In this document: piece by piece, positions 42,311-59,206 of the stretch | How the letters are laid out: the number at the start of each line of letters is the position of its first letter | Numbering within the stretch: the stretch's first letter is position 1 | Assembly (NCBI RefSeq): GCF_029360705.1 | Contig: NZ_JARKMX010000004.1 | Span: 310,001 to 374,000 of the forward strand | DNA: 64,000 nt | From: Paraflavitalea pollutisoli | GTDB lineage: Bacteria > Bacteroidota > Bacteroidia > Chitinophagales > Chitinophagaceae | Reading direction: 5' to 3' | The notes under the pieces: generated by a model | What the model saw: the letters and a program-made list of their open reading frames with translations, nothing else | Database searches by the model: none | Told to the model about the DNA's origin: nothing | Made by a program: the position numbers and the translations under genes

Positions 42311-43198
42311 TCAATTCTCCTGCTGCTTCAGGAATTGGGTAGGTGTAAAGCCGGTTTCTTTACGGAACAGGCGCGAGAAGTAAGGCGGATTTTCAAAGCC
42401 CAACCGGTAAGCCACTTCTGCAATAGTGTAGCGGCCACTATTGAGCAGGTTCTTGGCTTCCGATACCAGGAAATGCTGTATCAGGTCCATGGCGGTTTTG
42501 CCGGTTTCCTGCTTGAGCAGGTCGCTGAGGTAACGGGGTGATACATGCAATTCACTGGCAAACATCGCTACGGTAGGCAGGCCTTTTTCTTGTAGTAGTC
42601 CCTGTTCGAAATAAGCCGACAAAGCATCCTGGAATTTTGTGACAGTACCGCCCGATAGCATGCTGCGGTTCATGAACTGCCGCTTGTAGTAACGTTGCGC
42701 GTATTTCAGGATCGATTCGATATGGCCGATGATGATCTCACGGGTAAACTCGTCCTGGTTGTTCTTGTATTCCAGGTCGATCTTGTCAAACAGTTCCCAC
42801 ATGGTCTGTTCTTCCCTGGGCGAAGTATGCAGCGCTTCATTTAATTCGTAATTAAAGAAACTGTATTTTTTGATCTGTGTATGCAGGGGATGCCCATGCA
42901 GGTAATCTTCGTGGAACCAGATCTCGAAGCCATCACCTTCCAGGGCAATGTCTTTCATTTGAATCACCTGTTGAGGTTTCATGAAATACATAGAGCCGCT
43001 TTCGTGGTCATACTTTGTTTTGCCATAGCGGATCTCCCCGGTCTGTATTTTTTTCAACGAGATGATGTAGAAATCGGCCGTGACTTCATAGCTGGCCACA
43101 TTGCGGAGGGGATTGCACCGGAATAGCGTCAGCAGCGGATGCTCCGGGTCCGGGTAATGATTGCAGCGGTGTACATCACTCAGTCTTTTGAAATGCAT
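42311..43198 (-). CDS. AraC family transcriptional regulator
   Basis: A 295-residue regulator. The N-terminal half (about 1-180) is a cupin-like effector domain (LTLFRCNPLRNVASYEVTAD, IWFHEDYLHGHPLHTQIKKY); the C-terminal AraC DNA-binding domain holds two helix-turn-helix units, FASELHVSPRYLSDLLKQET and TIAEVAYRLGFENPPYFSRL, closing with FRKETGFTPTQFLKQ. Because the SDR gene lies directly upstream in the same direction, this regulator may control the SDR or the hydrolase. It is preceded by a hairpin (43215-43246). Confidence 0.92.
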   Translation of the reverse strand: MHFKRLSDVHRCNHYPDPEHPLLTLFRCNPLRNVASYEVTADFYIISLKKIQTGEIRYGKTKYDHESGSMYFMKPQQVIQMKDIALEGDGFEIWFHEDYLHGHPLHTQIKKYSFFNYELNEALHTSPREEQTMWELFDKIDLEYKNNQDEFTREIIIGHIESILKYAQRYYKRQFMNRSMLSGGTVTKFQDALSAYFEQGLLQEKGLPTVAMFASELHVSPRYLSDLLKQETGKTAMDLIQHFLVSEAKNLLNSGRYTIAEVAYRLGFENPPYFSRLFRKETGFTPTQFLKQQEN

Positions 43199-44959: not shown

Positions 44960-45035
44960 TGTCCGGTTCACCCGGGTCTTTGTCCCGTTGGCGGGTTGGG
45001 TGCTTGACCCCGGAGGCTTTTCACCGCTATTTTTA
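44960..45035 (+). promoter_or_regulatory. Composite promoter of the first epoxide hydrolase
   Basis: Two direct repeats TGTCCGGTT (44960) and TGTCCCGTT (44981) lie 21 bp apart. A CTTG box (45003-45006) follows 22 bp after the second repeat start, then a 21-bp spacer and TATTTTTA (45028-45035) as a -7 box. The same arrangement is found upstream of 52737 and, in weaker form, 57667. The stretch TGGCGGGTTGGGTGCTTG (44989-45006) also fits a sigma54 -24/-12 pattern (GG-N10-GC), so both readings are possible. Confidence 0.6.
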
Positions 45036-45067
45036 CGGGTAATTATTTAACAGCAAAAAGTATAGCG

Positions 45068-46345
45068 ATGAAAAAAGCAAAGCAAATCATAGCCTCTACA
45101 ATGCTGAGTGGTGCGATGGCACTGCAAGGTACGGTGGCTCATGCGCAGGCGGCCAAGCCCGATGAAAGCATTCGCCCCTTCAAAGTACAGGTGTCCGATG
45201 CGGAACTGGCCAATCTGAAGAAACGTATCCTCGCCACCAAATGGCCAAAGAAAGAGCTGGTTGGGGATGCCACTCAGGGTGTACAACAGGGAACGATGGA
45301 AAAGCTGGCCGACTATTGGGCTAAGCACTATGATTGGCGTAAGGTGGAGAAGCGATTAAATGCGTTACCCCAGTTCGTTACCAATATCGATGGCCTCGAT
45401 ATCAACTTCATTCATGTGCGGTCGAAGCATAAGAATGCGTTGCCGGTGATCATTACGCATGGCTGGCCAGGATCGATCATCGAGCAGATGAAGGTGATCG
45501 GGCCGCTGACAGACCCTACTGCCCATGGCGGTACTGCGGAGGATGCATTCGATGTCGTGATCCCTTCTTTGCCTGGCCATGGTTTTTCTGCGCAGCCTGC
45601 CGTGCTGGGTTGGAACCCTGAAAAGATTGCCAACGCCTGGATCACGCTGATGCGCAGGTTGGGATACAAGCAATTTGTAGCACAAGGTGGCGACTGGGGC
45701 AATGCCGTATCGGAAACCATGGCGCTGATTGCGCCGCCCGAATTGCTGGGTATTCATACCAATATGGCCGCCACCGTGCCGGCATCGATTTCGGCGGCGC
45801 TGGCAGCTGGTAAGGAACCGGACGGACTGAGCGCCGATGAAAAGAAAGCCTACCAGCAGTTGGACTTCTTCAACAAAAAAGGCTTGGGCTATGCCCAGGA
45901 GATGGGGCTGCGGCCACAGACCTTGTATGGTCTCGAAGATTCACCCATCGGATTGGCAGCGTGGATGCTGGACCACGACGCGAAAAGTTATGAGCTCATC
46001 ACGCGGGTATTTGATGGGGTGGAAGAAGGTTTGTCGCGGGAAGATATCCTGGAGAATATTACCTTGTACTGGTTGACGAATACGGCGGTGTCTTCAGCGC
46101 GGTTGTACTGGGAGGCCTTCCAGGTAGCCAAGGGTGGTTTCTTCGATCCGCGTCAGGTGCAGATACCGGTCGCCGTGAGTGCTTTTCCGGATGAGATCTA
46201 TACGGCGCCGGAAAACTGGGCAAAGGCAGCCTATCCCAAGCTCATCTATTATAACAAGTTGAATAAGGGTGGACACTTTGCGGCCTGGGAACAGCCGGCA
46301 GCGTTCACCAATGAATTACGGGCGGCGTTCAGGTCGTTGCGATAA
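45068..46345 (+). CDS. Epoxide hydrolase (EHN/microsomal type)
   Basis: A 425-residue secreted alpha/beta hydrolase with a signal peptide ending at AHAQ. It carries the EHN N-terminal meander (IRPFKVQVSDAELANLKKRI), the oxyanion motif THGWPGSI, the nucleophile Asp in FVAQGGDWGNAVS, and the His in LNKGGHFAAWEQP. These are the hallmarks of the microsomal and juvenile-hormone epoxide hydrolase family, which opens epoxides to diols. Full length is present. It is paralogous to the gene at 52737, and the two share upstream elements. It is followed by the Ohr/OsmC gene 63 bp later. Confidence 0.92.
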   Translation: MKKAKQIIASTMLSGAMALQGTVAHAQAAKPDESIRPFKVQVSDAELANLKKRILATKWPKKELVGDATQGVQQGTMEKLADYWAKHYDWRKVEKRLNALPQFVTNIDGLDINFIHVRSKHKNALPVIITHGWPGSIIEQMKVIGPLTDPTAHGGTAEDAFDVVIPSLPGHGFSAQPAVLGWNPEKIANAWITLMRRLGYKQFVAQGGDWGNAVSETMALIAPPELLGIHTNMAATVPASISAALAAGKEPDGLSADEKKAYQQLDFFNKKGLGYAQEMGLRPQTLYGLEDSPIGLAAWMLDHDAKSYELITRVFDGVEEGLSREDILENITLYWLTNTAVSSARLYWEAFQVAKGGFFDPRQVQIPVAVSAFPDEIYTAPENWAKAAYPKLIYYNKLNKGGHFAAWEQPAAFTNELRAAFRSLR

Positions 46346-46408
46346 GGTTACTGGTTACTGTGTAATAAATTGGATCATTCATTACCTAACATGTTCAATC
46401 ATTCAATC

Positions 46409-46837
46409 ATGGGAACGATAACAAGACCTGCCAGGGTGCTGTATACCGCGAAGACGCATACCACAGGTGGCCGCGAACACGGGTTGTCGAAGAGTTCAGA
46501 CGGTCGCCTCGAAGTGCACCTCGCTTCGCCGGCCAGCACCAACCAGGGCACGAATCCGGAACAATTGTTTGCTGCCGGTTGGTCGGCCTGTTTTGAAGGC
46601 GCTATGCAGTTGGCGGCGCAGCAGCGAAAAGTGACGCTGCCGGACACTGCTTCCATCGACGCTGAGGTTGACCTGCGTTTCGATAACGGACAATTCTCCC
46701 TGGAAGCACGCATGAACATCACCATCCCCGAACTGAGCCGGGACCTGGCAAAGGAGATCGTTGAAGCGGCGGAAAGCATTTGTCCCTATTCGAAAGCGGT
46801 GAAAGGCAATATTGTAGTTGAGTACAATCTGGTATAG
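46409..46837 (+). CDS. Organic hydroperoxide resistance protein (Ohr/OsmC)
   Basis: A 142-residue Ohr/OsmC family peroxidase from ATG 46409 (MGTITRPARVLYTAKTHTTG). The two redox cysteines lie in GWSACFEGAMQLAA and ESICPYSKAV, and the conserved Arg in GGREHGLS is present. Ohr reduces organic hydroperoxides, with lipoyl proteins as reductant. Its place directly after an epoxide hydrolase suggests shared use against oxidised lipids. It ends at a strong bidirectional terminator. Confidence 0.92.
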   Translation: MGTITRPARVLYTAKTHTTGGREHGLSKSSDGRLEVHLASPASTNQGTNPEQLFAAGWSACFEGAMQLAAQQRKVTLPDTASIDAEVDLRFDNGQFSLEARMNITIPELSRDLAKEIVEAAESICPYSKAVKGNIVVEYNLV

Positions 46838-46870
46838 ACGGTTTGCATTTTGAGTTGGTTTTAGCTGTTA

Positions 46871-46910
46871 AACCGGGCTGGTTGGTACAACCAGTCCCGG
46901 TTTTTTGTTT
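46871..46910. terminator. Bidirectional terminator between Ohr and kinase genes
   Basis: AACCGGG-CTGGTT (46871-46883), loop GGTAC, AACCAG-T-CCCGGTT (46889-46902) and then TTTTGTTT. The T-rich tract gives a strong plus-strand terminator; the same stem also serves the convergent kinase gene ending at 46914. Confidence 0.85.
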
Positions 46911-46913
46911 TGT

Positions 46914-49181
46914 TTAGGCATAGGCCGCGTGGTCGGCCATGGTAGGTACCGGCTCGTAAGGAAAGCTGATGGTGATTGTTGTACCGTTGCTGCCAGACAG
47001 GGTAAAACTACCACTGATCTCCCGTACCAGGCCACGCATGAGGTTAATACCCATGGATTCCAATCGCTGGATATCGAAGCCGGGTGGCAGGCCAATACCA
47101 TTGTCCTGGATGGTGAGTTGGTAGTGGTTGCCCGTGGTATTTGCCAGTGTGATCGAGATCAATCCTGCCCGTTTGTCCGGAAAGGCATATTTATAGGCAT
47201 TGGTGATGGCCTCGTTGAGAATAAGTCCGAGGGGAATACAATGTGCCAGGTCGAACTCTACGGGCGCGATCTGTAATTGAAAACGCACATCGCTGTCGGC
47301 ATAGCTTTCGCTCAGCGATTCGACCAGCTCATGCAAATAATCCTGTATCCTGACGGACGAGAGGTTGTTGGATTTGTACAACCGTTGGTGAATGAGGAGC
47401 ATCGCTTGGATGCGCTGCTGACTATCGTTGATGGCGCTGATCGCGACATCGTTCTTCAGGTAGGCCGATTGGGTACCGAGCAGGCTCATGACCGTTTGAA
47501 AGTTGTTCTTGACACGATGGTGGATCTCCTTGAGCAGCCATTCTTTTTCGATCACCAGCCCCTCCAGTTGCTCATTCTTTTGCGAGATGATGGCATTGCT
47601 GCGCTGTTTGTTGCGGTATTGCCGGTAAAGCAGCGCGATGATCAGCAAGGCTGCCAGGATGCCTGCAATGGTAAGATAAGTGAGCAGGTTAGCCTGACGA
47701 AGATCAGCTTTCTGCAGGTCGTTGGCAAGCTGAAGATTGATGATATTCTTGTCTTTGAGTTTGATCGAGTCTTCTTTTTGCGCGACTTCGTACTCGATAC
47801 CTGCCACTTGTAGTTGCCGCAAATTGTTTTCAGAAAATATGGAATCTGTTACCTCCTTATAGCGGGACAGGCTATGGAAGGCCGCCTGGTAATCGCGGCG
47901 TGCCGAATCTAATTTGTAATGCAACTGAAGATTACGCGACATCTCACATTTCGTGCAAACACGCCGTTCCCATTCGTCACTTATGTCGAGGTAGTGTTGG
48001 GCTTTCGCGTTTTGACCGGTGTACAAGTAGAAGGTCGCAATATAGCGGTTTAGAGAGCCTCGGTTGATGGCTGGAAATGCTGCCTCTTTATCCAGTGCCA
48101 ACAACTGGTTGCAAGCCTGCTGGGCCTTTTCGCGCTGTTGCAGGCGCAAGTTACTGACGAGTACAATCCTGTAATACGCGTATTTAATTGTATAACTATC
48201 TTTTTCCTTTAGTAGGTGCAGGGGGTAGTCCCGAAGTATCTGCAAGGCCATCACCGGTTGGTTTTCGCAATAAATGTAGGCTGCATTACAGACCGTTAAA
48301 GCTATCGAAAAACTTTCATCAACCTTTTTTGCGTATGTCAGTGCTTGTTTATAATAGCTGGCTGCCAATTCGTTGCGGCCTATTTTATGGTAGATCATGG
48401 CTAAGCCGTGGTGGATCTTATACATTTGAATAGAGCTATCACCGGTCAAGGTTGCAGCTCTGAGTGACCTGAAGTAATAGTGTATGGAGAGTACGTATTC
48501 GTCTAACTGAAAATACAATTCCCCAATCAATAACCCAACATCCTGCACTTTGGGGTAACCTATCGAATCATATAGAGCGAGCGACTGCAGCAGCAATTGG
48601 AGGCTTTGATGACGGTTACGGTTTACGAATGTCAGATCCCCCAGCATTTCCAGTGAACGTGCCATCCTGAGTGTATCGCCAGCCAATTGAAATGCTTCGA
48701 CGGCTTGACTAACCAGGTTCATCTTTACTGCCCGCTGTATTGAATCCTGATATGAGTAATACATGGATAACTCATACAAGGCACGCCCCAGCAGCCCTTT
48801 CAGTTGGCTGTTTCGGAGTAGTCTCACAGCTTCTCCTGCTTTATTAAAACCGGTTTCACGAGCGCCTCTTTCGCGCTCTAAGTACGATTGGTTGACCAGG
48901 ATATAGGCAGCAGCGTCGGCTGATTTGTTTTTTTTATTAAGTGCAATGGCCTGGTCGATGTAGGTCTGGCCACTATCGAGGTCGATCTTGTTCTCGCCTG
49001 CCTTAAAGATGTGGAATTGTGCCAGGTTTAATAGCGTTTCTATTTGAGTGGCAGCTTTTGTGTTGGGCAGGAGGGCGAGCATCGAGTCTGCTTCATGGCG
49101 GGAGATGGCATCAATCTGTGCCTGTACAGAAGATGTTAATAAGGTGGCGGTCATCAATACAACCATAAATCGCATAGTCAT
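46914..49181 (-). CDS. TPR-containing sensor histidine kinase (HisKA_2)
   Basis: About 755 residues from ATG 49181 (MTMRFMVVLMTATLLTSSVQ). A periplasmic part rich in TPR-like repeats (about 40-430) leads to a coiled coil, one transmembrane helix (TYLTIAGILAALLIIALLYR), the HisKA_2 motif EIHHRVKNNFQTVMSLLG with the phospho-His, and the HATPase domain (LILNEAITNAYKYAFPDKRA, TIQDNGIGLPPG). It is a paralogue of the kinase at 13972. It is divergent from a receiver-less LytTR gene, with a long inverted repeat between them, so the pair may form a signalling unit of unusual type. Confidence 0.92.
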   Translation of the reverse strand: MTMRFMVVLMTATLLTSSVQAQIDAISRHEADSMLALLPNTKAATQIETLLNLAQFHIFKAGENKIDLDSGQTYIDQAIALNKKNKSADAAAYILVNQSYLERERGARETGFNKAGEAVRLLRNSQLKGLLGRALYELSMYYSYQDSIQRAVKMNLVSQAVEAFQLAGDTLRMARSLEMLGDLTFVNRNRHQSLQLLLQSLALYDSIGYPKVQDVGLLIGELYFQLDEYVLSIHYYFRSLRAATLTGDSSIQMYKIHHGLAMIYHKIGRNELAASYYKQALTYAKKVDESFSIALTVCNAAYIYCENQPVMALQILRDYPLHLLKEKDSYTIKYAYYRIVLVSNLRLQQREKAQQACNQLLALDKEAAFPAINRGSLNRYIATFYLYTGQNAKAQHYLDISDEWERRVCTKCEMSRNLQLHYKLDSARRDYQAAFHSLSRYKEVTDSIFSENNLRQLQVAGIEYEVAQKEDSIKLKDKNIINLQLANDLQKADLRQANLLTYLTIAGILAALLIIALLYRQYRNKQRSNAIISQKNEQLEGLVIEKEWLLKEIHHRVKNNFQTVMSLLGTQSAYLKNDVAISAINDSQQRIQAMLLIHQRLYKSNNLSSVRIQDYLHELVESLSESYADSDVRFQLQIAPVEFDLAHCIPLGLILNEAITNAYKYAFPDKRAGLISITLANTTGNHYQLTIQDNGIGLPPGFDIQRLESMGINLMRGLVREISGSFTLSGSNGTTITISFPYEPVPTMADHAAYA

Positions 49182-49234
49182 GTGAGATATTTTTGAAGCC
49201 TTGAAGATAGGATGGCGTGTACACAATTTTCGCC

Positions 49235-49285
49235 CACAACGAAATCTCAGTGACTACCATGGCTACACCACGATATTTCGTTGTG
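49235..49285. repeat. 11-bp inverted repeat between kinase and LytTR genes
   Basis: CACAACGAAAT (49235-49245) and ATTTCGTTGTG (49275-49285) form a perfect inverted repeat around a 29-bp centre in the divergent region between the kinase and the LytTR gene. It may be an operator or a cruciform/hairpin. Confidence 0.55.
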
Positions 49286-49425
49286 GTTGAGCGTGTGTTT
49301 TATGCTATCTGGTTGAAAAGCAGTGCATTGCTGATCTGGCACAGTCTTCGTTCTCTTATGGCAGCGATGAGTCTTACAGCATCCGTCGTCCTGTCCGATT
49401 AACCATTCATTATAAAAATAGTTAC

Positions 49426-49947
49426 ATGAAACCGTGTACCATCTCCAGTCAGCCGGGGGCCAATCAGCCTATGCCTATCCTGGCCAACGCAACAACAACG
49501 GCCTCGATCCTGCAGGCCTTTTCTGCCAGCAACCTGCAACAGTTGCTCCAGCTGATGAAATTCCCGGCCTGTCATCAATTGATGTCTCATCTACTGGCTG
49601 GTGACAGCAAAAAGAGTTTTCTGGTAATGAAAGACAATAAGTACCGTAGTGTTCCGACGCAAGATATTGCGTTGTTCTTTATCACTGAAAGTGCGCCGTC
49701 ACTCCAATGTTTCAATGCCGCCGTGTTTTCACTACAGCAATCGCTTGATATAGTGCAGCACCGTTTGCCCGCCCGGCAGTTTTTCCGGATCAACCGGCAA
49801 TGCCTGATCAATTTCAAGCTGGTGAAAGATGTTGATACCTATTTCGGCAGGAAACTGCTGGTGAACCCGGTCATCCCGGTGCCACAGCCTTTGGTGGTTC
49901 CCCGCGAAAAGGTGAGTGCCTTCCTGGAATGGCTGGATAATCGCTAG
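49426..49947 (+). CDS. Receiver-less LytTR DNA-binding regulator
   Basis: A 173-residue protein whose C-terminal half is a LytTR domain: KSFLVMKDNKYRSVPTQDIA, then LDIVQHRLPARQFFRINRQC (the FxRxxRxxLIN motif) and FGRKLLVNPVIPV. The N-terminal 60 residues (STISSQPGANQPMPILANAT region) hold no receiver domain. LytTR domains bind pairs of direct repeats. It is paralogous to the regulator at 52099 and probably acts with the divergent histidine kinase or by its own expression level. Confidence 0.88.
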   Translation: MKPCTISSQPGANQPMPILANATTTASILQAFSASNLQQLLQLMKFPACHQLMSHLLAGDSKKSFLVMKDNKYRSVPTQDIALFFITESAPSLQCFNAAVFSLQQSLDIVQHRLPARQFFRINRQCLINFKLVKDVDTYFGRKLLVNPVIPVPQPLVVPREKVSAFLEWLDNR

Positions 49948-49956
49948 AGCCTCGGA

Positions 49957-49998
49957 TGTGATGTAGATCACATTTGACTGAATGTGATCCATGTCACG
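49957..49998 (+). promoter_or_regulatory. Two tandem CRP/FNR-type palindromes
   Basis: TGTGATGTAGATCACA (49957-49972) is a perfect TGTGA-N6-TCACA dyad, and TGTGATCCATGTCACG (49983-49998) is a second with one mismatch. Their centres are 26 bp apart. They lie 53-94 bp before the YceI start (50051), indicating control of the YceI operon by a CRP/FNR-family regulator. An upstream codon at 49991 that opens the YceI frame would lie inside site 2, which supports 50051 as the true start. Confidence 0.75.
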
Positions 49999-50050
49999 CA
50001 ATCACGCTATGAATTCGTCGCAAATTTGTATTCAAATAAATCTTACAACA

Positions 50051-50569
50051 ATGAGCAATCAAACATTCAACATCGTTCCCGCACAAAGCAAGATCGATTG
50101 GGTAGGCAGAAAAGTAACCGGTACACACTTTGGCACCATCGCGATCAAATCGGGCATCCTGTATGCAGAAGCAGAAAAACTGGTAGGTGGCGAAGTAGTG
50201 GTAGATACTGCCTCCATCAAGATCGATGATGTGACCGATCCGGCACTCAATGCGCAGTTTGCCGGTCACCTGGCTTCCGATGATTTCTTTTCTACTGCGC
50301 AGTATCCAGAAGCAGTGCTGTTGATCACGGCGGTAAGCGGCAATTTCATCAAAGGCGATCTGACGATCAAAGGCATCACCCATTCGGTAGAGTTCGCGGC
50401 TGACCTGAACGTGGCTGGCGATACGCTGAAGGCTACCGGTACCATCGTGATCGACCGCACCAAATACGGCATCAAATTCCGTTCGGGCAATTTCTTCCAG
50501 AACCTGGGAGACAACCTGATCTACAATGATTTTTCACTCACCATTAACCTGACCGCGCAGGCTGCTTAA
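50051..50569 (+). CDS. YceI family protein
   Basis: A 172-residue YceI-like lipocalin-type barrel. It begins MSNQTFNIVPAQSKIDWVGR without a signal peptide, so it is cytosolic, unlike E. coli YceI. Conserved elements are GKVTGTHFGTIAIKSG-type strands, TASIKIDDVTDPALNAQFAG and FFSTAQYPEAVLLITAVSG, closing with a strand ending in FSLTINLTAQ. Members bind isoprenoid or other amphipathic chains. It heads an operon of five genes (YceI, tautomerase, NTF2-like, SDR, LytTR) under CRP/FNR-type sites. Confidence 0.9.
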   Translation: MSNQTFNIVPAQSKIDWVGRKVTGTHFGTIAIKSGILYAEAEKLVGGEVVVDTASIKIDDVTDPALNAQFAGHLASDDFFSTAQYPEAVLLITAVSGNFIKGDLTIKGITHSVEFAADLNVAGDTLKATGTIVIDRTKYGIKFRSGNFFQNLGDNLIYNDFSLTINLTAQAA

Positions 50570-50597
50570 GCAGCCTGGCGGCCATAAAAAAAACGTT

Positions 50598-50822
50598 ATG
50601 CCATACATTAAAATTGAGCTCACACGCGAAGACGTGACCCGCGAAAAGAAACAACAACTCATCAAAGGCGTCACCAACCTGATCATGGAGGTGCTGAACA
50701 AAGATCCCCTGCTGACACACGTCGTCATTCAGGAGATCGATACCGACAACTGGGGCTACAACAACGAGCAGGTATCCGTGATGCGCGAACAAGGTATTTC
50801 TTCTGACATCAAAAAAGCGTAA
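50598..50822 (+). CDS. 4-oxalocrotonate tautomerase-like protein
   Basis: A 74-residue tautomerase-superfamily protein; after removal of the initial Met, Pro becomes the catalytic N-terminus (PYIKIELTREDVTREKKQQL). The beta-alpha-beta unit and the VVIQEIDTDNWGYN segment are typical. Family members isomerise enol and keto forms of unsaturated acids or hydrolyse activated olefins. It is second in the YceI operon, 4 bp before the next gene, so translation may be coupled. Confidence 0.9.
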   Translation: MPYIKIELTREDVTREKKQQLIKGVTNLIMEVLNKDPLLTHVVIQEIDTDNWGYNNEQVSVMREQGISSDIKKA

Positions 50823-50826
50823 TGTT

Positions 50827-51204
50827 ATGAGCAACCTAACAGCTGAAGCAGCAATCCGGCTGGCGCTGGAAAACCTGTACTTCAAAGGCATCTTCGAAGG
50901 CGATCTGCACCTGCTGGAGCAGGTGTATGTACCAGGCTCCCTGGTCGTGGGAGACGTAAAAGGGGTTCCCTATTTTAAAACCCTGGAGCAATACCTCGAT
51001 GGGGTAGGTAACCGCAAAAGCCCGCGCGAAACAGGTTCCCCTTTCCAGGGGGAAATCCTTTCGGTATCGGTGATCAACTCGATCGCCGTGGCCGAAGTGA
51101 CCGTGAAGATGTATGACTTCGATTACCACGAGTTTCTGTCCTTCCACGAGCTGGACGGACACTGGAAGATCGTGAACAAGATGCTGACCGATACCCGGTC
51201 ATGA
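50827..51204 (+). CDS. NTF2-like protein (lumazine-binding type)
   Basis: A 125-residue NTF2-fold protein: LTAEAAIRLALENLYFKGIF, EQVYVPGSLVVGDVKGVPYF and the closing strands HEFLSFHELDGHWKIVNKML. It resembles the putative lumazine-binding and SnoaL-like families. A small hydrophobic ligand or isomerase substrate is likely. It stands between a tautomerase and an SDR, in line with a short catabolic or biosynthetic route. Confidence 0.83.
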   Translation: MSNLTAEAAIRLALENLYFKGIFEGDLHLLEQVYVPGSLVVGDVKGVPYFKTLEQYLDGVGNRKSPRETGSPFQGEILSVSVINSIAVAEVTVKMYDFDYHEFLSFHELDGHWKIVNKMLTDTRS

Positions 51205-51243
51205 TTCCCTGATCTATTCTTTCAAAGGTTAATACAAACGATC

Positions 51244-52062
51244 ATGTCAAAAGTCATTTTTATAACCGGCGCTTCCCGAGGCTTCGGGAAGTTGTGGGCC
51301 GAGGCATTTTTGCGGCGGGGCGACCGGGTGGTAGCCACCGCCCGGAATCTGGCGCAGCTCGATGAGTTGGTACAGTTATACGGCGATCGCGTATTGCCGT
51401 TGCAGCTGGATGTCACGATTCGGGATGCGGGCATCGCTGCTATTCAGGTAGCACAGCAACATTTTGGTCGCATCGATGTGCTGATCAATAATGCGGGCTA
51501 TGGTTTGTTTGGCCCCATCGAAGAAGCTACCGAACAGGAAGTGCGCGAGCAACTCGAAGTAAATGTATTGGGTCTGGTATGGATGATACAGGCCATCTTG
51601 CCGGTGATGCGTGCTCAAGGCAGCGGGCATATCATCAACGTATCGAGCGTGCTGGGACTGGTGGGCGTGCCTACCCTTGGACTCTACAATGCTTCCAAAT
51701 ATGCCGTTGAAGGCATTTCGGAAGCGTTGGCCAAAGAAGTGAAAGCTTTTGGGATCAATGTAACGTTAGTAGAGCCCAATGCCTACGCCACCGACTGGAG
51801 CGGCGCTTCGGCGATCCATACCACGGCGATGCCGCAATACGATGCCGTAAAGGCGAGTTTCCGGGCAGCGCTGACGGAAGATTTCTTCGGTGATCCTGCT
51901 GCCACCCCCACGGCAGTGCTGCAGCTGGTCGATGCTTCACAGCCGCCCCTGCATTTTTTGCTGGGCAAAAAGGCATACGCCTGGGTGAAAGGGGTATATG
52001 ATCAACGCTGGGCCGATTGGAATGCCTGGCGTGCGGTGTCAGAGGCCGCACACGGTAAATAG
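51244..52062 (+). CDS. Short-chain dehydrogenase/reductase
   Basis: A 272-residue classical SDR: ITGASRGFGKLWAEAFLRRG for NAD(P), VLINNAGYGLFGPIEEATEQ, the Ser in IINVSSVLGLVGVPTLG and YxxxK in GLYNASKYAVEGISEALA. It is close to the SDR at 43256 through the entire length, so one arose from the other by duplication. It is fourth in the YceI operon. Confidence 0.93.
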   Translation: MSKVIFITGASRGFGKLWAEAFLRRGDRVVATARNLAQLDELVQLYGDRVLPLQLDVTIRDAGIAAIQVAQQHFGRIDVLINNAGYGLFGPIEEATEQEVREQLEVNVLGLVWMIQAILPVMRAQGSGHIINVSSVLGLVGVPTLGLYNASKYAVEGISEALAKEVKAFGINVTLVEPNAYATDWSGASAIHTTAMPQYDAVKASFRAALTEDFFGDPAATPTAVLQLVDASQPPLHFLLGKKAYAWVKGVYDQRWADWNAWRAVSEAAHGK

Positions 52063-52098
52063 GCAGATTTCTTTTCTTCAACTTTCAATCCACCAATC

Positions 52099-52614
52099 AT
52101 GTTACGGCCAACCCTTGCATATCCGGCAGCGGATGATGATACTGCTTTGCCGGATCTATCGCTCCATGAAACATTCCAGGAAACGATACAGGCGCCTGCT
52201 TTGCAGGAACTGGTCCAATCACCCTACCTGCGCGAGCTGGCGGATCTGCTGAGCAGGATAGGCCAGCCCACCGGCAAGACCAATTTCCTGGTGCACAAGA
52301 ACAACAAGTACATCAATGTAACGACAGAGAGCATCGCCTATTTCTATGTGAAATACGATACCACGATCATCGTCACCTTTGGCAAGCAGGAATATTTTGT
52401 CGATCATTCGCTGGAAGAAATCGAGCAGTTGCTGCAAAAAGACCAGTTCTTCCGCCTGAACCGGCAATACCTGGTGCATTTCTCTTCCATCCGGGAAGTG
52501 GAGCATTATTTTGCCCGCAAACTGCTGGTCAACCTGACCGTACCCACCAAAGAAAAGCTACTCGTCTCCAAGCGTAAAGCCGCCACCTTTCTGCATTGGC
52601 TCGATAACCGGTAA
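52099..52614 (+). CDS. Receiver-less LytTR DNA-binding regulator
   Basis: A 171-residue protein with a C-terminal LytTR domain (KTNFLVHKNNKYINVTTESI, IEQLLQKDQFFRLNRQYLVH and YFARKLLVNLTVPT) and an N-terminal tail without a receiver domain. It ends with FLHWLDNR, like its paralogue at 49426 (FLEWLDNR). As the last gene of the YceI operon it is placed directly before an epoxide hydrolase whose promoter contains direct repeats 21 bp apart, so it is the prime candidate to activate that promoter. Confidence 0.88.
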   Translation: MLRPTLAYPAADDDTALPDLSLHETFQETIQAPALQELVQSPYLRELADLLSRIGQPTGKTNFLVHKNNKYINVTTESIAYFYVKYDTTIIVTFGKQEYFVDHSLEEIEQLLQKDQFFRLNRQYLVHFSSIREVEHYFARKLLVNLTVPTKEKLLVSKRKAATFLHWLDNR

Positions 52615-52632
52615 TCATTTGCCGCCTGCTGT

Positions 52633-52708
52633 TGTCTGACTCAACCCTCATCTTGTCCACCTGGCGGGACTGGTGCTTGTACACCAGGCATTGCCAACCT
52701 TATTTTTG
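52633..52708 (+). promoter_or_regulatory. Composite promoter of the second epoxide hydrolase
   Basis: Direct repeats TTGTCTGAC (52632) and TTGTCCACC (52653) are 21 bp apart. A CTTG box (52676-52679) and, after 21 bp, a perfect -7 box TATTTTTG (52701-52708) follow. All spacings equal those at 44960-45035. An inverted repeat CTGGTG/CACCAG spans the CTTG box (52670-52687). TGGCGGGACTGGTGCTTG (52662-52679) can also be read as a sigma54 -24/-12 element. Confidence 0.62.
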
Positions 52709-52736
52709 ATTATTCATCCTTCTAAAAAGTATAGCC

Positions 52737-54026
52737 ATGAACAACAATACATTTTTTTCAAGAAACCTGCTGGTAGCAATGCTCGGCATACTACTCGTAG
52801 CCGGCAGCTGTAAAGAGCGCTCACAAGCGCCGATTGGCGGAGAAGCTACCGCTATCCGTCCTTTTACTGCCAAAGTCGCTGATGAAGCGATCACGGACCT
52901 GAAGCGTCGTATCAAAGACACGCGTTTTCCTGACAAAGAAACTGTGTCGGACCGGTCGCAAGGGGTACGCCTGGAGAAATTCAAAGCACTGATGGGGTAC
53001 TGGGGTGACAGTTATGACTGGCGTAAGGCAGAAGCGAAGCTGAACGCCTTCCCGCAGTTCATTACCAATATCGATGGACTTGATATCCACTTTATTCATG
53101 TGAAGTCGAAACACGCCAATGCGTTGCCTGTTATCGTTACGCATGGCTGGCCTGGCTCTGTTTTTGAGCAGATCAAGATCATTGCACCCCTGACCGATCC
53201 AACTGCTTTTGGCGGTCAGGCACAGGATGCTTTTGATGTGGTGATCCCTTCTATGCCGGGGTATGGCTATTCGGGCAAACCCACCACGCCCGGCTGGGGA
53301 CCCGAGCGGATCGCCAAAGCCTGGGATGTACTGATGAAAAGGCTAGGGTATAGTAAGTACGTGTCGCAAGGTGGCGACTGGGGGGCTGTAGTGGCTGATG
53401 CGATGGGCAGACTGGCGCCCGAAGGGCTTGCCGGTATTCACGTCAACATGCCTGCGACGGTTCCGGCAGATATAGCTAAAGCTTTGCAATGTGGTGAACC
53501 GGCACCGGCAGGTCTCAGTCCAGAAGAAAGGAAAGCGTACGAATCGATGAATGAGTTGTATACCCGGGGTGGTGGTTATGCCGGTATCATGGTCACCAGG
53601 CCACAGACTTTGGCCTATAGCCTGGCTGATTCCCCTTCGGGCCAGGCTGCTTTCTACTACGACAAGTTCGACGACTGGACCTTCAGCGGCGGTGATGCCG
53701 AAAAAGTGTTGTCGAAAGATGATATGCTGGACGATATCACGCTTTATTGGATGACCAATACCGGTGGCAGTTCCGCCAACCTGTATTGGGAGAACAACAA
53801 TAACAATTTCAACGTCGTGCAACAGAAGACGCAGGAGATCAAAGTACCGGTAGCCATCACGGTATTTCCCGGTGAGATCTACCAGGCACCCAAAAGTTGG
53901 GCGGAGAAGGCATATCCCAAGCTGTCGTATTACCACCAGGTGGATAAAGGCGGTCATTTTGCCGCCTGGGAGCAGCCTCAGTTGTTTGCCGAAGAACTCC
54001 GCGCCGCTTTCAAAACTGTACGTTAA
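52737..54026 (+). CDS. Epoxide hydrolase (EHN/microsomal type), lipoprotein
   Basis: A 429-residue paralogue of the epoxide hydrolase at 45068. It differs in having a lipoprotein signal (LLVAMLGILLVAGS then CKERS), so it is membrane-anchored. The EHN domain (IRPFTAKVADEAITDLKRRI), THGWPGSV, the nucleophile Asp in YVSQGGDWGAVVA and the His in VDKGGHFAAWEQP are all present. It is followed 26 bp later by another hydrolase gene, with which it likely forms an operon. Confidence 0.92.
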   Translation: MNNNTFFSRNLLVAMLGILLVAGSCKERSQAPIGGEATAIRPFTAKVADEAITDLKRRIKDTRFPDKETVSDRSQGVRLEKFKALMGYWGDSYDWRKAEAKLNAFPQFITNIDGLDIHFIHVKSKHANALPVIVTHGWPGSVFEQIKIIAPLTDPTAFGGQAQDAFDVVIPSMPGYGYSGKPTTPGWGPERIAKAWDVLMKRLGYSKYVSQGGDWGAVVADAMGRLAPEGLAGIHVNMPATVPADIAKALQCGEPAPAGLSPEERKAYESMNELYTRGGGYAGIMVTRPQTLAYSLADSPSGQAAFYYDKFDDWTFSGGDAEKVLSKDDMLDDITLYWMTNTGGSSANLYWENNNNNFNVVQQKTQEIKVPVAITVFPGEIYQAPKSWAEKAYPKLSYYHQVDKGGHFAAWEQPQLFAEELRAAFKTVR

Positions 54027-54067
54027 TCATCTATTACCAATAAACGCATTGTATGAAATTCATTAGT

Positions 54068-55102
54068 ATGCACAATCGTCGTTCCTTTATTCAATCAGCT
54101 GCCAAAGTGATCGCATTAGGTCCGCTGGCAGCAGCGACGCCCCACCTGGTATCCTCCATTGTTACGCCCGCTGCAAGCGCTCCTGCGACTTCCGGTAATG
54201 CTTTTGCCGGTAAGATCAAACAGATCAAAGCAGGAGAATTGAATGTAGGGTATGTCGACGAAGGGCCACGTGATGGGCAGACGGTATTGTTGTTGCATGG
54301 CTGGCCTTACGACATCAATAGTTTTGCTGAAGTAGTGCCCATCCTTAACAAGAAAGGTTATCGCACCGTTGTGCCTTACCTGCGTGGATATGGAACTACG
54401 GAGTTTCTGTCCGAGCAAACTTTCCACAATGGACAGCAGTCTGTCTTTGCAGTAGATGCCATAGCATTGCTGGACGCCTTGCAGATCGATCAGGCGATTG
54501 TCGCAGGTTTCGACTGGGGTGCCCGAACTGCCTGCATCCTGGCAGCCTTGTGGCCCAAACGTTTCAAAGCGCTGGTGTCCGTGAGCGGTTACCTGGTAGG
54601 TAATCAGATTGTCGGCAAGCAGCCCTTGCCACCTGCCGCCGAATTGCAGTGGTGGTATCAGTTCTACTTTGCCACGGAACGTGGCAAGGTGGGGTATACG
54701 AAGAACACCGCGGCCTTCGCCAAACTGATCTGGCAGCAGGCATCGCCTACCTGGAAGTTTGATGATGCCACCTTTGGTATCACAGCGGCCGCACTGAACA
54801 ACCCGGCACATGTCGATATCGTGGTGCACAATTACCGGTGGCGGATGGGCATAGCAGACGGAGACACCAAGTACAATGACCTGGAACAACAGCTGGCTGC
54901 CGCACCTGCGATCACGATACCGACGATCACGATCGAAGGTGACAACAATGGTGCACCACATCCGGATGCCACTGCCTACGCTGCGAAGTTTACGGGAAAG
55001 TATAGCCATAAGGTTTTCAAAAACACAGGTCATAATCCACCACAGGAGTCACCGGCCGCTTTTGCAGCCGCCGTGATCGAAGTGGCTGGTTATGTGGCTT
55101 AA
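54068..55102 (+). CDS. Alpha/beta hydrolase with Asp nucleophile, Tat-exported
   Basis: About 344 residues from ATG 54068 (an ATG at 54053 would add five). The N-terminus MHNRRSFIQSAAKVIALGPL has a twin-Arg motif followed by a weakly hydrophobic segment, indicating Tat export. Oxyanion motif LHGWPYDINS, nucleophile GFDWGARTA with Asp in the nucleophile elbow, and His in NTGHNPPQES place it with epoxide hydrolases and haloalkane dehalogenases rather than esterases. This makes three such enzymes within 10 kb. It overlaps the frame of the following NTF2-like gene only if that gene starts at 55092. Confidence 0.88.
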   Translation: MHNRRSFIQSAAKVIALGPLAAATPHLVSSIVTPAASAPATSGNAFAGKIKQIKAGELNVGYVDEGPRDGQTVLLLHGWPYDINSFAEVVPILNKKGYRTVVPYLRGYGTTEFLSEQTFHNGQQSVFAVDAIALLDALQIDQAIVAGFDWGARTACILAALWPKRFKALVSVSGYLVGNQIVGKQPLPPAAELQWWYQFYFATERGKVGYTKNTAAFAKLIWQQASPTWKFDDATFGITAAALNNPAHVDIVVHNYRWRMGIADGDTKYNDLEQQLAAAPAITIPTITIEGDNNGAPHPDATAYAAKFTGKYSHKVFKNTGHNPPQESPAAFAAAVIEVAGYVA

Positions 55103-55112
55103 AACGAAAAGT

Positions 55113-55610
55113 ATGCTGGACACAAAAAAACTGGAGCAGGCATTCGGACAGGGTGCAAGGTCCAGAAAGGCCGAGGCGGCGCATCGCGGATTCGCGGGCG
55201 CCGTTGCGGCTTTGGAAACATTCTATTATGCCTTCAATAACCGGGATATCGATGCCATGCATGATGTGTGGGACGAAGTCGATCAGATTCAACTCAACAA
55301 CCCGGTGGGCGGTATTATCAGGGGCCGCGAGGAAGTGATGGCTTTATATACGAGGATCTTTTATGGCCATGCCCGGGTATGGGTGGAGCTGTCGGATATC
55401 TTTTACTATGCGTCGGAGGAGATGGTGGTCTTTGCCGGTACGGAACACGGTGCATTTACACGTGAGGGTATTACCATCCCCTTAAAGATCAGAACGACCC
55501 GCTTGTTTACCTACCGTGATCACCATCCACACCAATGGGTGCAGGTACACCACCATGGCTCTATCGACGATGCCGATGTACTGCAACGGTACCAGGCCGC
55601 TGTGTTGTGA
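55113..55610 (+). CDS. SnoaL/DUF4440-like NTF2-fold protein
   Basis: A 165-residue NTF2-fold protein; ATG 55113 (MLDTKKLEQAFGQGARSRKA) is preferred to 55092, which would overlap the preceding gene by 11 bp. The core is ALETFYYAFNNRDIDAMHDV, HARVWVELSDIFYYAS and WVQVHHHGSID, matching the SnoaL-like_3 group. It is likely the last gene of the epoxide hydrolase operon and stops directly against the convergent sigma54 regulator. Confidence 0.83.
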   Translation: MLDTKKLEQAFGQGARSRKAEAAHRGFAGAVAALETFYYAFNNRDIDAMHDVWDEVDQIQLNNPVGGIIRGREEVMALYTRIFYGHARVWVELSDIFYYASEEMVVFAGTEHGAFTREGITIPLKIRTTRLFTYRDHHPHQWVQVHHHGSIDDADVLQRYQAAVL

Positions 55611-57485
55611 TTACTGGATATCAGACTTCCTGATGCCTAATTTTTTCATGCGGGAGGCCAGGGTAGTAGGTGGCAGGTTGAGTATTTCCGCAGCTCCACC
55701 GACGCCCCACACCCTTCCTTTGCATTTCTGGAGGATGTGGATGATGTGATCGCGCTCATTTTCGTGAATAGTCTTGAGCCGAAGATCTTCCTGTTCTGGC
55801 TGTAATTTACGGGCAGGGGCATCGGGTAGGGTACTGTCTTCGATCATATTGTTACGGGCCATCAGCACGCCCCGCTCGATGAAGTTTTCCAACTCGCGGA
55901 TATTGCCAGGCCAGTGATAGGCAGCCATGGAGTTGGCCACGCGGTCCGACACTCCAACGATCGAGCGTCCTGTCTTTTCGCCAAACAGCTTGATGAAATG
56001 GCGGGTCAGCAAGGGGATGTCTTCCACCCGTTGCCGCAATGGTGGCAGTTCAATTGGGAATACATTCAGCCGATAATATAAGTCGAGCCGGAAGCGACCT
56101 TCCGCGACTTCTTTTTCCAGGTTGCGGTTGGTGGCGGCGATGACACGCACATTCACTTTGGTGGGTTCTTTCGCGCCAATACGCTCTATGTATTTTTCCT
56201 GCAGTACGCGCAGCAGTTTGACTTGTAGCTCCAGGGGCATTTCGCCGATCTCGTCGAGGAAGATGGTGCCCTGATCGGCTTTTTCAAATTTACCAATACG
56301 TTTATCGGTGGCGCCTGTAAAGGCGCCTTTTTCATGGCCAAACAGTTCAGACTCGATGAGGGTTGGTGGCAGGGCCGCGCAATTCACTTTGATGAATGGT
56401 TTGCCTTTGCGGGGCGACCCGTTGTGAATGCAGTCGGCGATCCTTTCCTTACCCGTACCACTTTCGCCAAGTATCAGCACCGACGTATCGGAACTGGCCA
56501 CGCGGGTGATCAGGTCAAATACATTCAGGATCAGCGGGCTCTGGCCAACGATGCCTTCAAATTGATTACTGGTAGTCAGGACGTCTGTTTTGGGCCTGAG
56601 CGGCTGGTTGAGCTGCACGCTGGCCGGTGGCTTAGTCATGGAATTTGCCACGACGGCAGTGAGTGTGGACTGCAGTTGTTTGTACAGGTTGACGACTTCG
56701 TCGGTATAGGTGCCCTGTTGACGGGAATAGACCGAAAGGTGGAAGCGGAAGTCTGGGGCGATGTCGAGGTAGAGTGACGTGCAGGACCGCAGGCTGAAAG
56801 TATCATTCAGCATATCGTAGAGAGAGGTCGTATTGACCAAAGGAAGTAATTCCTGCATGGTCAATCCGGCGATGGTCAGCAATTCGGACAGCCCGATCTG
56901 TTGGTATTCATCAAATCCGATACGCAAACAGCTGTAGCTGTACTGTGGGTCATCGGCAATGCGATTGAAGCCGGCCGTGAGATAGTCGAAAGGTATACAG
57001 GTCTGCAAGGCACGCGCAATAGCCTGCAGTTTAACAGGCCAGCTATCGTTGCTGTTGCCGATGTTCTTCAGTTGTTGTTGTACTTTCTCCAGTTTGCGTA
57101 AAGTGGCTTCGCGGCTGTATTCGTGGCGGTAGCGCGCAATGTCGAGCATCACGAGCAGGTCCCTTTCGCGATAGGGTTTGATGAGAAAGCCGTAGGGTTG
57201 GGTGGCTTTGGCTGCATTGAGTACCTCTTCATTGGAATTGGCGGAGAGATACACAAAAGCAATGTGTTCATTGTTGAGTTCCCTGGCCAGGTCGATACCT
57301 GTTTGTTTGCCTTTTACGAATATATCGAGCAAAACGATATCAGGCCGCTCTTGTGCGATCAGCTCTTTGGCTTCCGCAACGGAGTGGGCAATACCCGTAA
57401 CGTCGTATCCCGCTCGCTTCAGCAGGATACGCAGATAGTCAGCTTCGATGAACTGATCTTCTACGATTAAAATTTTCTCCCTCAT
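55611..57485 (-). CDS. Sigma54-dependent response regulator (receiver-GAF-AAA+-HTH)
   Basis: A 624-residue enhancer-binding protein. The receiver domain (1-125) has the acidic pair VEDQ and the phosphoacceptor Asp54 in [11 protein letters not shown], with the Lys in [14 protein letters not shown]-like region (about 150-300) follows, then the AAA+ domain with Walker A GESGTGKE, the sigma54 contact loop GAFTGA, Walker [11 protein letters not shown], and a Fis-type helix-turn-helix ([20 protein letters not shown]). No kinase gene is adjacent. It is divergent from the isochorismatase-like gene, which has a sigma54-like sequence in front of it. Confidence 0.93.
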
Positions 57486-57573
57486 GTCGGCAGTTGTTTG
57501 AGCAGCAATCCCTTACGAGGCGTCAAGTTACTGATTCCCGGAGAATTACAGGGCGCTTTTTTTTACCTCCGAT

Positions 57574-57651
57574 ATGGGCTGCCTCATGAATGGAATGGGC
57601 CGCCTCACCGGCGTGGTACTTGACCCGCACCCTGAACCATTGGTAACTTCA
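57574..57651 (+). promoter_or_regulatory. Promoter and direct repeats of the isochorismatase gene
   Basis: ATGGGCTGCCTCA (57574-57586) and ATGGGCCGCCTCA (57595-57607) are 13-bp direct repeats 21 bp apart with one mismatch. They sit at the same distances (43 and 22 bp, counting from the second base of each) from CTTG (57619-57622) as the repeats before the epoxide hydrolases, and TAACTTCA (57644-57651) follows after exactly 21 bp. TGGTACTTGACCCGCA (57614-57629) also fits a sigma54 GG-N10-GC pattern. Confidence 0.5.
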
Positions 57652-57666
57652 TGCAAACGAATTCAA

Positions 57667-58338
57667 ATGGACAAGCATACAGAGAATGGATTTGGCCGCT
57701 ATGGCACCTATGAATCCAAACGTACGGGTATCCTGCTGGTGGACCCCTACAATGACTTTCTGCACCCCAATGGGAAGTCTTATTTCAAGTCGCGGGAAGT
57801 GATCGAGGGGGTGCACCTGCTCGACAATATGCGCAAGGTGATCCGGACCGCCCGCGACCTCGGCATCCAGGTATTTTATGTGCCGCATCACCGCTCCGAA
57901 CCCAATGATTTCAACAACTGGAAATACCCCACCAGTGGTCAGTTGTCGACCAAAGAGCGACAGGTTTTTGCGAAAGATTCCTGGGGTGGCACTTTTCACG
58001 AAGACTTTCAGCCGCAGACCAACGACGTGATCATCAAAGAGCATTGGGCGCAGAATGGTTTTGCGAACACCGACCTCGATCAGCAGTTGAAGCAACACAA
58101 TATAGACCGCGTGATCCTGATCGGCATGCTCGCGAATACCTGTATTGAAGCCACAGGCCGCATGGCCATGGAACTGGGTTACCACGTTACCCTGGTACGC
58201 AATGCCACTGCCACTTATTCGTGGGAGCATATGCATGCGGCGCATGAACTGAACGGCCCCACGTTTGCCCATGCCTTGTTGGAGACCGACGAATTAGTGT
58301 CCATCCTGCTCGGTAATACAGTTGTACAACAAGCCTAA
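57667..58338 (+). CDS. Isochorismatase-like cysteine hydrolase
   Basis: A 223-residue protein from ATG 57667 (MDKHTENGFGRYGTYESKRT); an earlier ATG at 57574 lies within the promoter repeats. The catalytic triad of the family is visible: Asp in ILLVDPYNDFLHP, Lys in VIIKEHWAQNGF and Cys in GMLANTCIEATGRMA. Family members hydrolyse amides, nicotinamide or carbamoyl substrates. Its stop overlaps the frame start of the enoyl-CoA hydratase region, and the true starts are 10 bp apart, so the two genes are co-transcribed. Confidence 0.9.
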   Translation: MDKHTENGFGRYGTYESKRTGILLVDPYNDFLHPNGKSYFKSREVIEGVHLLDNMRKVIRTARDLGIQVFYVPHHRSEPNDFNNWKYPTSGQLSTKERQVFAKDSWGGTFHEDFQPQTNDVIIKEHWAQNGFANTDLDQQLKQHNIDRVILIGMLANTCIEATGRMAMELGYHVTLVRNATATYSWEHMHAAHELNGPTFAHALLETDELVSILLGNTVVQQA

Positions 58339-58348
58339 ATCCAATATT

Positions 58349-59206
58349 ATGAGCTATACAGAAGAAATGATCCCGGGCAGCCCGTTACGGCTACGTAAAC
58401 ACAATCCGGGTTTCTGGCAGGTAACCATCGATGCACCGCCCCTCAACCTATTTGGCCCGGATATGCTCGACGGACTGGAACAACTGGCCAATCAAATGCA
58501 ACGTACACCGGAGTTGCGGGTGATCGTATTTGACAGCGCAGTGGAAGAATTTTTTATCGCACACTTCGACGTCAACCGGGGCGGCGAGGTGCTGCAACGC
58601 AAAACGGCCTCCGGCGTACCGCCCTGGTTGAATATCGCGATGCTGCTGCACGAATCGCCCGTGATCAGCATTGCCTGTATCCGCGGGCGAACGCGCGGTG
58701 TGGGTGTCGAGTTTTCGGCAGCCTGTGATCTGCGGTTTGCGAGCGAGCTGGCAGTCTTTGGCCAGATCGAAGTGGGACTTAGCACCATTCCAGGAGGCGG
58801 CAGTATGGAGTTCCTGCCCTTGCTGATCGGCCGGGCACGGGCCTTGGAGCTCATCGTCGGGTCGGAGGATATCGATGCAGCCACGGCCGAGAAATATGGT
58901 CTGATTAACCGGCTGGTGCCCGATGCGCAGTTGAATGAATTTGTATACAACCTGGCCATGCGGATCAGTCAGTTTGACCCGGTCATCACCGGACAGGCAA
59001 AAACCATGATCAACAAACGGTCGCCCAAGCCGTCGCTGGATGATATGGTGTTTTCGCGCACTGCCTTTATCCAGGCCAATCTGCGGCCCGAGCGTAAGCG
59101 GGTGGCGCAACGCATGCAGGACTGGGGGATTCAGCAATACAGCGATTTCGAATTGAATATGGGCGCCTACCTGAATCATATCGGGAAAGACGAGCATAGT
59201 TTATAA
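58349..59206 (+). CDS. Enoyl-CoA hydratase/isomerase family protein
   Basis: A 285-residue crotonase-fold protein; ATG 58349 begins MSYTEEMIPGSPLRLRKHNP. Recognisable parts are DSAVEEFFIAHFDVNRGG (first oxyanion strand), IRGRTRGVGVEFSAACDLRF (second) and EVGLSTIPGGGSMEFLPLLI, followed by the helical tail VITGQAKTMINKRSPKP. The CoA-binding residues fit, but whether it hydrates, isomerises or hydrolyses is open. It lies between an isochorismatase and an SRPBCC-like protein, in one operon. Confidence 0.9.
   Translation: MSYTEEMIPGSPLRLRKHNPGFWQVTIDAPPLNLFGPDMLDGLEQLANQMQRTPELRVIVFDSAVEEFFIAHFDVNRGGEVLQRKTASGVPPWLNIAMLLHESPVISIACIRGRTRGVGVEFSAACDLRFASELAVFGQIEVGLSTIPGGGSMEFLPLLIGRARALELIVGSEDIDAATAEKYGLINRLVPDAQLNEFVYNLAMRISQFDPVITGQAKTMINKRSPKPSLDDMVFSRTAFIQANLRPERKRVAQRMQDWGIQQYSDFELNMGAYLNHIGKDEHSL

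Follow-up and report, generated by a model that had tools for sequence, protein, structure and literature searches.

Three promoters in a gene cluster of Paraflavitalea pollutisoli each carry a pair of direct repeats, and the question raised by this locus is which protein recognises them. The cluster lies in the stretch of 64,000 nucleotides analysed here (the window), which spans 310001-374000 of contig C12 in a genome of 8.76 Mb. Judging from comparison of sequences, the repeat pairs are very probably the operators of one group of LytTR-domain proteins, and as such they would mark a set of hydrolase and stress genes. The conservation of these predicted operators, their spacing and their linkage to the LytTR group recur in other genomes.

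All three promoters face the forward strand. The operator of P1 (44960-44991) consists of TGTCCGGTTCA (44960-44970) and TGTCCCGTTGG (44981-44991), which start 21 bp apart (lag 21), and its core promoter (45003-45035) consists of CTTG (45003-45006), a 21-bp spacer and TATTTTTA (45028-45035). In P2, the operator at 52633-52664 (TGTCTGACTCA, 52633-52643; TGTCCACCTGG, 52654-52664) precedes a core promoter at 52676-52708, with CTTG at 52676, the 21-bp spacer and TATTTTTG (52701-52708). P3 has its operator at 57576-57607 (GGGCTGCCTCA, 57576-57586; GGGCCGCCTCA, 57597-57607) and its core at 57619-57651, with CTTG at 57619, the 21-bp spacer and TAACTTCA (57644-57651). An earlier note on this DNA had described direct repeats 21 bp apart at three promoters, with CTTG, a 21-bp spacer and a TAnnTT box downstream. 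Both features are there in P1, P2 and P3, and the observation is confirmed as real. In ungapped self-matches, lag 21 ranked first among lags 15-29 in each promoter, the best 10-nt stretch reaching 8 (P1), 7 (P2) and 9 (P3) matches. The same note put the repeats 43 and 22 bp before CTTG, which holds for P1-P3 in one common 11-nt register, whereas the repeats as it printed them start at -44/-23 in P2 and -45/-24 in P3. P1, P2 and P3 agree in having the TAnnTT box begin 47 bp past the start of repeat 2.

How much of this could arise by chance within the window? Counting both strands, CTTG-N21-TAnnTT occurs four times. Two of the four cores, P1 and P3, are accompanied by lag-21 repeats that match at 7/9 or better, and no repeat of at least 7/9 was found beside the window's cores of this kind at the other lags from 15 to 30. 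A repeat-bearing core appeared in 0 of 200 first-order Markov resamplings of the window. On its own, the P2 repeat is weak, with 6 of 9 letters matching in its printed form. Because P2 falls under the 7/9 cut of this chance test, the window evidence alone is only suggestive. The strong support for the operator comes from other genomes.

We built a weight matrix from the six window repeats only; none of the sites used to train the profile R1, described below, entered it. Run at a threshold of 14 over 456 kb from other genomes, comprising 27 LytTR loci, the matrix found 39 pairs at lag 21, whereas the remaining lags between 12 and 35 gave 1-10 each. When a TAnnTTT box at the right distance was added, 18 pairs remained at lag 21 versus 0-1 elsewhere. 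Eight of these 27 loci had been fetched because of an R1 site in or near them, and several supplied R1 training sites. As a control, 73 hydrolase loci that are non-Bacteroidota by title (1.32 Mb) gave 58 pairs at lag 21 versus 22-66 at the others, without a peak, and no matrix pair with a TAnnTTT box.

In 18 held-out sites, the conserved columns of repeat 1 read T-G-n-C-Y-R-n-Y-T-S-R and those of repeat 2 n-G-Y-C-Y-R-C-Y-T, and the TTT of the -7 box is conserved as well. CTTG, a box in the description of the earlier note, was dropped as a defining element, its position being only weakly T-rich in the same sites. Of 38 sites, 20 from training and 18 held out, 35 have the -7 box beginning 44-47 bp past the start of repeat 2. 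A partial third half-site lies 21 bp upstream, with T at -13 in 17 of the 18 held-out and 13 of the 20 training sites; the window sites read TCCG, TTGC and TTTA there, and a third half-site is not claimed for the window. The -7 box of P1-P3 and related sites is of the TAnnTTTG type that PMC9723704 presents for flavobacterial sigmaA promoters; what sets P1-P3 apart is the LytTR-type repeats upstream. Known LytTR sites, in the accounts of PMC4847170 and PMC11347149, are repeats of 9-11 nt with spacers of 10-13 nt, mostly upstream of -35. The window operators match this layout in spacing and position, with direct repeats of 11 nt and a 10-nt spacer (or 9 and 12) upstream of and near the core promoter.

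The cluster itself encodes two LytTR proteins without receivers, as the earlier note had said: protein A (173 aa; 49426-49947, forward strand; Pfam LytTR 4.4e-10) and protein B, or LytB (171 aa; 52099-52614, forward strand; Pfam LytTR 1.7e-18), which served as the reference of the group. With 40.1 and 67 bits against a cut-off of 22.6 for LytTR (PF04397), both belong to the family, and neither has a Pfam receiver match. The relation between sites and such genes was quantified with R1, a sequence-only profile from 20 sites, none of them from the window. In the source genome, R1 gave 10 matches below E 0.04, which comprise the three window sites (P1 4.4e-5, P2 7.5e-5, P3 5.6e-3), three sites from the training set and four that were new. 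Eight of the 10, and six of the seven non-training sites, have one of four LytB-group genes (C12:359504, C12:362099, the receiver-bearing C1:568910, and C15:289264) no more than 10 kb away. The inference of a LytTR regulon in the earlier note is supported, with the correction that the regulon is not only local, own-genome sites lying on C1 and C15 too.

Among 147 genomes of the family, 23 had R1 sites at E<=0.001, 46 sites in total. A site was present in 18 of the 19 genomes with a LytB homologue at E<=1e-32, a cut chosen after the LytB search results had been viewed, versus 5 of the 128 others (Fisher 1e-17); the LytB search and the R1 scan, which used stricter filters, are taken to cover the same 147 genomes. 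Without the seven genomes known as training sources, the comparison was 11/12 versus 5/128, and the genome of locus L109, which supplied a training site, is possibly also among those counted. Of the five site-bearing genomes outside the LytB group, three (G039, G099, G107) have the site less than 2.5 kb from a LytTR of more distant relationship, which is not the case in G055 and G116. With distances measured to a list of 52 LytTR places, not every LytTR, a listed homologue is found no more than 10 kb from 31 of the 46 sites, and from 17 of the 24 sites in the 16 site-bearing genomes that gave no known training site. In 20 hand-picked genomes, all 14 with LytB-group genes had a site at E<=0.01. 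The six without the group gave a site at 8.5e-5 (G055), matches only above 0.25 (G020, G094) or none at E<=0.5 (G005, G008, G010).

Comparison of the regions upstream of hydrolase genes elsewhere, which the earlier note had proposed as a check, found the operator in the LytTR-keeping loci L110 (a contig of Paraflavitalea sp. CAU 1676), L113, L092 and L098. Receiver-less LytTR homologues in other genera share loci with the same hydrolases, kinase and NtrC-type regulator, and the same repeat-promoter architecture stands before hydrolase orthologues and other genes in many LytTR-fetched loci, not all. Hydrolase-fetched loci were the best 80 of at least 585, seven of them Bacteroidota by title. 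Among these 80, tblastn found a LytB homologue only in L110 and L113, and in both the full promoter lies 109-110 nt upstream of the hydrolase match. The other 78 contained a full site only once, in L109 (Flavihumibacter), at 6.5 kb beyond the hydrolase match; this 21-kb locus has a sigma54-activator match and no LytB match. Six hydrolase loci from Bacteroidota that gave no LytB match (L103, L104, L111, L112, L114, L160) yielded no full site. As exceptions, the site occurs in L102, L105 and L268, where the 20-kb stretch contains no LytTR; LytTR genes lie elsewhere in their genomes.

Several observations weigh against assigning the operator to this LytTR group. The source genome has 66 LytTR domains, and the E-values of R1 are rough, having come from a shortened calibration. 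P1-P3 score 26.4, 25.7 and 19.8 bits, below many sites elsewhere. Fifteen of the 46 sites are farther than 10 kb from any LytTR on the partial list. G018 carries the LytB group and no site at E<=0.001; G055 has no LytB match at E<=1e-32, yet its site precedes an alpha/beta hydrolase and an OsmC gene. The repeats, whose loss in loci that keep the genes was named as a refutation by the earlier note, are kept in many such loci, but L093 and L095-L097 have LytTR genes and no full site in the scanned stretch. Finally, because four sites adjoin LytTRs only 40-44% identical to LytB, the specificity between site and LytTR may be broader.

Which member of the group acts at P1-P3 is a separate matter. 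The receiver-bearing paralogue C1:568910 might bind there in place of the local A and B, a variant of the LytTR reading that is not exclusive of it. Receiver-bearing LytTR paralogues also have operators, the same operator type surrounds this one in the source genome (C1:566910, 569380 and 570977), and its LytTR domain clusters with those of receiver-less proteins. On the other hand, site-bearing hydrolase operons show linkage to receiver-less LytTR genes in several genera, and P2 begins 21 bp past the LytB match. We consider this variant unlikely, though worth keeping in mind.

A different binder would be the NtrC-type response regulator of the cluster (55611-57485, reverse strand), which combines a receiver, a sigma54-activating AAA+ domain with GAFTGA and a Fis helix-turn-helix. 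In 10 of 14 receiver-less LytTR loci a homologue of this regulator is encoded as well, but by tblastn, where part of the results comprised only hits above 60 bits, no match was found in any of 16 receiver-bearing LytTR loci (Fisher 3e-5; the loci are not independent, since G086 and G048 supply three receiver-less loci each). Here 'receiver-less' means no Pfam receiver for A and B and an open frame of at most 225 aa for the others. All 16 of the receiver-bearing loci have R1 or matrix sites in or near them (the weakest in L209, E 0.023), 8 of the 16 having been fetched because of a site. The geometry, direct repeats at a sigmaA promoter, also argues against such a binder, and we hold it to be very improbable. 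Two of the activators counted among the ten, both from G086 (L093 7045-8142 and L095 4864-5961), carry a long N-terminal part that differs from the receiver in the window, and the four receiver-less loci without a sigma54 activator lie on contigs of 6.4-17 kb.

It is slightly less credible still that the boxes of P1-P3 are sigma54 promoters (GG-N10-GC) and not sigmaA ones. Scored against the sigma54 consensus, TTGGCGGGTTGGGTGCT in P1 reaches 0.81 and CTGGCGGGACTGGTGCT in P2 0.83, values attained by fractions of 0.02 and 0 of 300 shuffles, but P3 needs another register (0.72, with 0.12 of shuffles as high). In the 18 held-out sites the sigma54 columns carry little information, while the TTT of the -7 box does. 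Despite the fit at P1 and P2, this reading was dropped because GG-N10-GC is not conserved across sites. An AraC-type binder is the least plausible of all: AraC sites can also be 21-bp-spaced direct repeats, so the geometry is compatible, and an AraC-type gene (42311-43198) lies about 2 kb from P1, but this candidate was rejected because the gene is not conserved across the 25 related loci, with strong homologues only in L093 (40%) and L215 (34% identity), weak ones in five others and none at E<=1e-4 in the remaining 18.

Under the LytTR reading, two monomers would bind half-sites of about TGTCYRNYTCR with a 21-bp period on the same face of the DNA, just upstream of sigmaA-type promoters whose TAnnTT box begins 44-47 bp past the start of repeat 2, and would activate RNA polymerase. 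The predicted regulon would unite hydrolases (EHN, alpha/beta, isochorismatase) with stress or redox genes (OsmC, DoxX, DUF1223, cupin-like, haem-binding), for which we infer a role in detoxification, and in two loci it would include a LytS-type kinase gene adjoining the LytTR gene. Its content was read from the first open frame after each site. Pfam was run on representatives, one protein each for DoxX, DUF1223, cupin (below cut-off), haem-binding, kinase, alpha/beta hydrolase, 3-hydroxyacyl-CoA dehydrogenase (3HCDH) and HbpS, the others being named by eye. EHN hydrolases, OsmC, alpha/beta hydrolases, DoxX, DUF1223 and cupin-like genes recur; isochorismatase (P3), haem-binding/cytochrome P460, 3HCDH and HbpS-like genes appear once or twice. 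Twelve loci (L263-L274) were fetched around sites with no listed LytTR gene nearby; in five of them (L263, L266, L268, L269, L272) a hydrolase or OsmC gene of the kinds seen in the window follows within about 600 nt. In L236 and L242, the site precedes the LytS-type kinase gene upstream of a receiver-bearing LytTR (identified by Pfam in L236 and by eye in L242), which suggests autoregulation. A further site of the regulon type, C15:1332-1402 (E 6e-5), stands before an HbpS-like gene, and the nearest LytTR is 17.7 kb away.

In this cluster, the activity of the receiver-less LytTR proteins would probably be set by their amount, via the neighbouring kinase and sigma54-type activator. The shared loci described above, taken together with the domain tree, palindromes, sequence elements and rpoN genes described below, suggest a cascade in which these two control the amount of LytTR and thereby the hydrolase operons. 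In such a two-tier circuit, the kinase and the sigma54 activator would switch on the receiver-less LytTR, which would activate the hydrolase and stress operons via the 21-bp operator. The output domain would have been repeatedly re-plugged under another two-component system, the receiver-bearing paralogue keeping the operator. We advance this circuit tentatively, as a serious possibility somewhat short of probable. In a midpoint-rooted tree of LytTR domains, which did not resolve the placement of protein A, at least two changes of receiver state are required, one for a 14-row receiver-less clade and one for L099, which lies inside a receiver-bearing clade. Repeated re-plugging is proposed because of these changes and because, at both places in the tree, the receiver-less forms are accompanied in their loci by a sigma54 activator.

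A candidate site for the activator is the imperfect palindrome ACCACGATATTTCGTTGT (49267-49284), between the kinase and LytTR genes. In 99 records (1.8 Mb), palindromes like ACCACGATATTTCGTGGT gave 58 matches with at most three arm mismatches, four of them with at most one. These four best (window 49267, L094, L097, L110) all lie between the divergent kinase and LytTR operons, the copies in L094, L097 and L110 being better than that of the window. Each of these three loci has a weaker copy about 30 bp away (L094 9763/9793, L097 5998/6027, L110 17047/17077), and in L093, L095 and L099 palindromes of a related kind stand before the LytTR gene. A strict criterion retrieved only L093, L094, L097 and L099 of 21 records, missed the window and L110, and had a background of 14 in 1.32 Mb. 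Upstream of the LytTR gene lies a putative sigma54-like element, TGGCACAGTCTTCG (49337-49350, forward strand), whose -12 C is not conserved. Similar elements (TGGCAY-N4-TTYG, the -12 C absent) precede the LytTR gene or operon in 6 of 12 records (window, L092, L093, L095, L099, L110), and none was found there in L091, L094 (one letter off), L097, L098, L205 or L206. The pattern GGCAY-N4-TTYG, fixed after some matches had already been seen, has a background of 4.2e-5 per position and strand and six further matches elsewhere in the window. The canonical TGGC[AC][CT]..TTGC had four matches in 16 records, none before a LytTR gene. Palindromes of these kinds were not found in L205 or L206. Because of this absence and of an element in only 6/12 records, the upper tier is held as secondary, at the tentative strength given above. 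The source genome has two rpoN genes, at C1:70838-71311 (Sigma54_DBD 1.5e-52) and C15:2988722-2989195 (4.3e-49).

Comparison with known systems shows what is new here. AgrA of Staphylococcus aureus has a receiver and belongs to another phylum with other targets; the motif letters of BtsR and YpdB, gamma-proteobacterial LytS/LytTR systems, differ from the operator described here, which is associated with two proteins without a receiver and with hydrolase and stress operons. As described in PMC4227749, AgrA binds as a dimer to two direct repeats immediately upstream of promoters, a likeness to P1-P3. BtsR and YpdB share the repeat-pair sites of the general LytTR layout, and their target motifs are presented as conserved across species (PMC5552118, PMC4847170). 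RcoM1 and CoxC, not classical response regulators, also use evenly spaced direct repeats (PMC11347149); CoxC senses CO via a fused MHYT domain, whereas the N-terminal part of A and B has no Pfam match. In the best-ranked results from the open-access literature, no LytTR operator was reported for Bacteroidota, and neither this operator nor LytTR control of epoxide hydrolases. The regulon and the operator sequence are new and follow a principle already known; the surprising part, if true, would be the loss of the receiver under a sigma54 activator. The predicted operator and the genome-wide match list make the targets of the LytTR group testable in a genome with dozens of LytTR domains. They connect epoxide-hydrolase-like and OsmC genes, so far uncharacterised, with a single signal, and they suggest a route for moving the output domain of a response regulator between signalling systems.

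The remaining genes complete the cluster. P1 is followed by an epoxide-hydrolase-like EHN/alpha-beta hydrolase (45068-46345, forward strand; PF06441, 1.7e-37) and an OsmC-like gene (46409-46837, forward strand; PF02566, 4.6e-18), which, judging from the spacing, is probably the second gene of the P1 operon. The kinase, with TPR and HisKA_2 matches in Pfam, occupies 46914-49226 on the reverse strand, its start codon being provisional. Domain searches identified a second EHN/alpha-beta hydrolase after P2 (52737-54026, forward strand), followed by an alpha/beta hydrolase (54053-55102) and a SnoaL-like protein (55092-55610). P3 precedes an isochorismatase-domain gene (57667-58338, forward strand; Pfam; 223 aa in frame from 57667) and then an enoyl-CoA hydratase-like gene (58322-59206). 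The cluster also encodes a lumazine-binding-like protein, an SDR and YceI. Upstream of the likely YceI start near 50051, the palindromes TGTGATGTAGATCACA and TGTGATCCATGTCACG (49957-49998) resemble Crp/Fnr sites, and a similar palindrome pair precedes YceI in L091, a locus of another genus.

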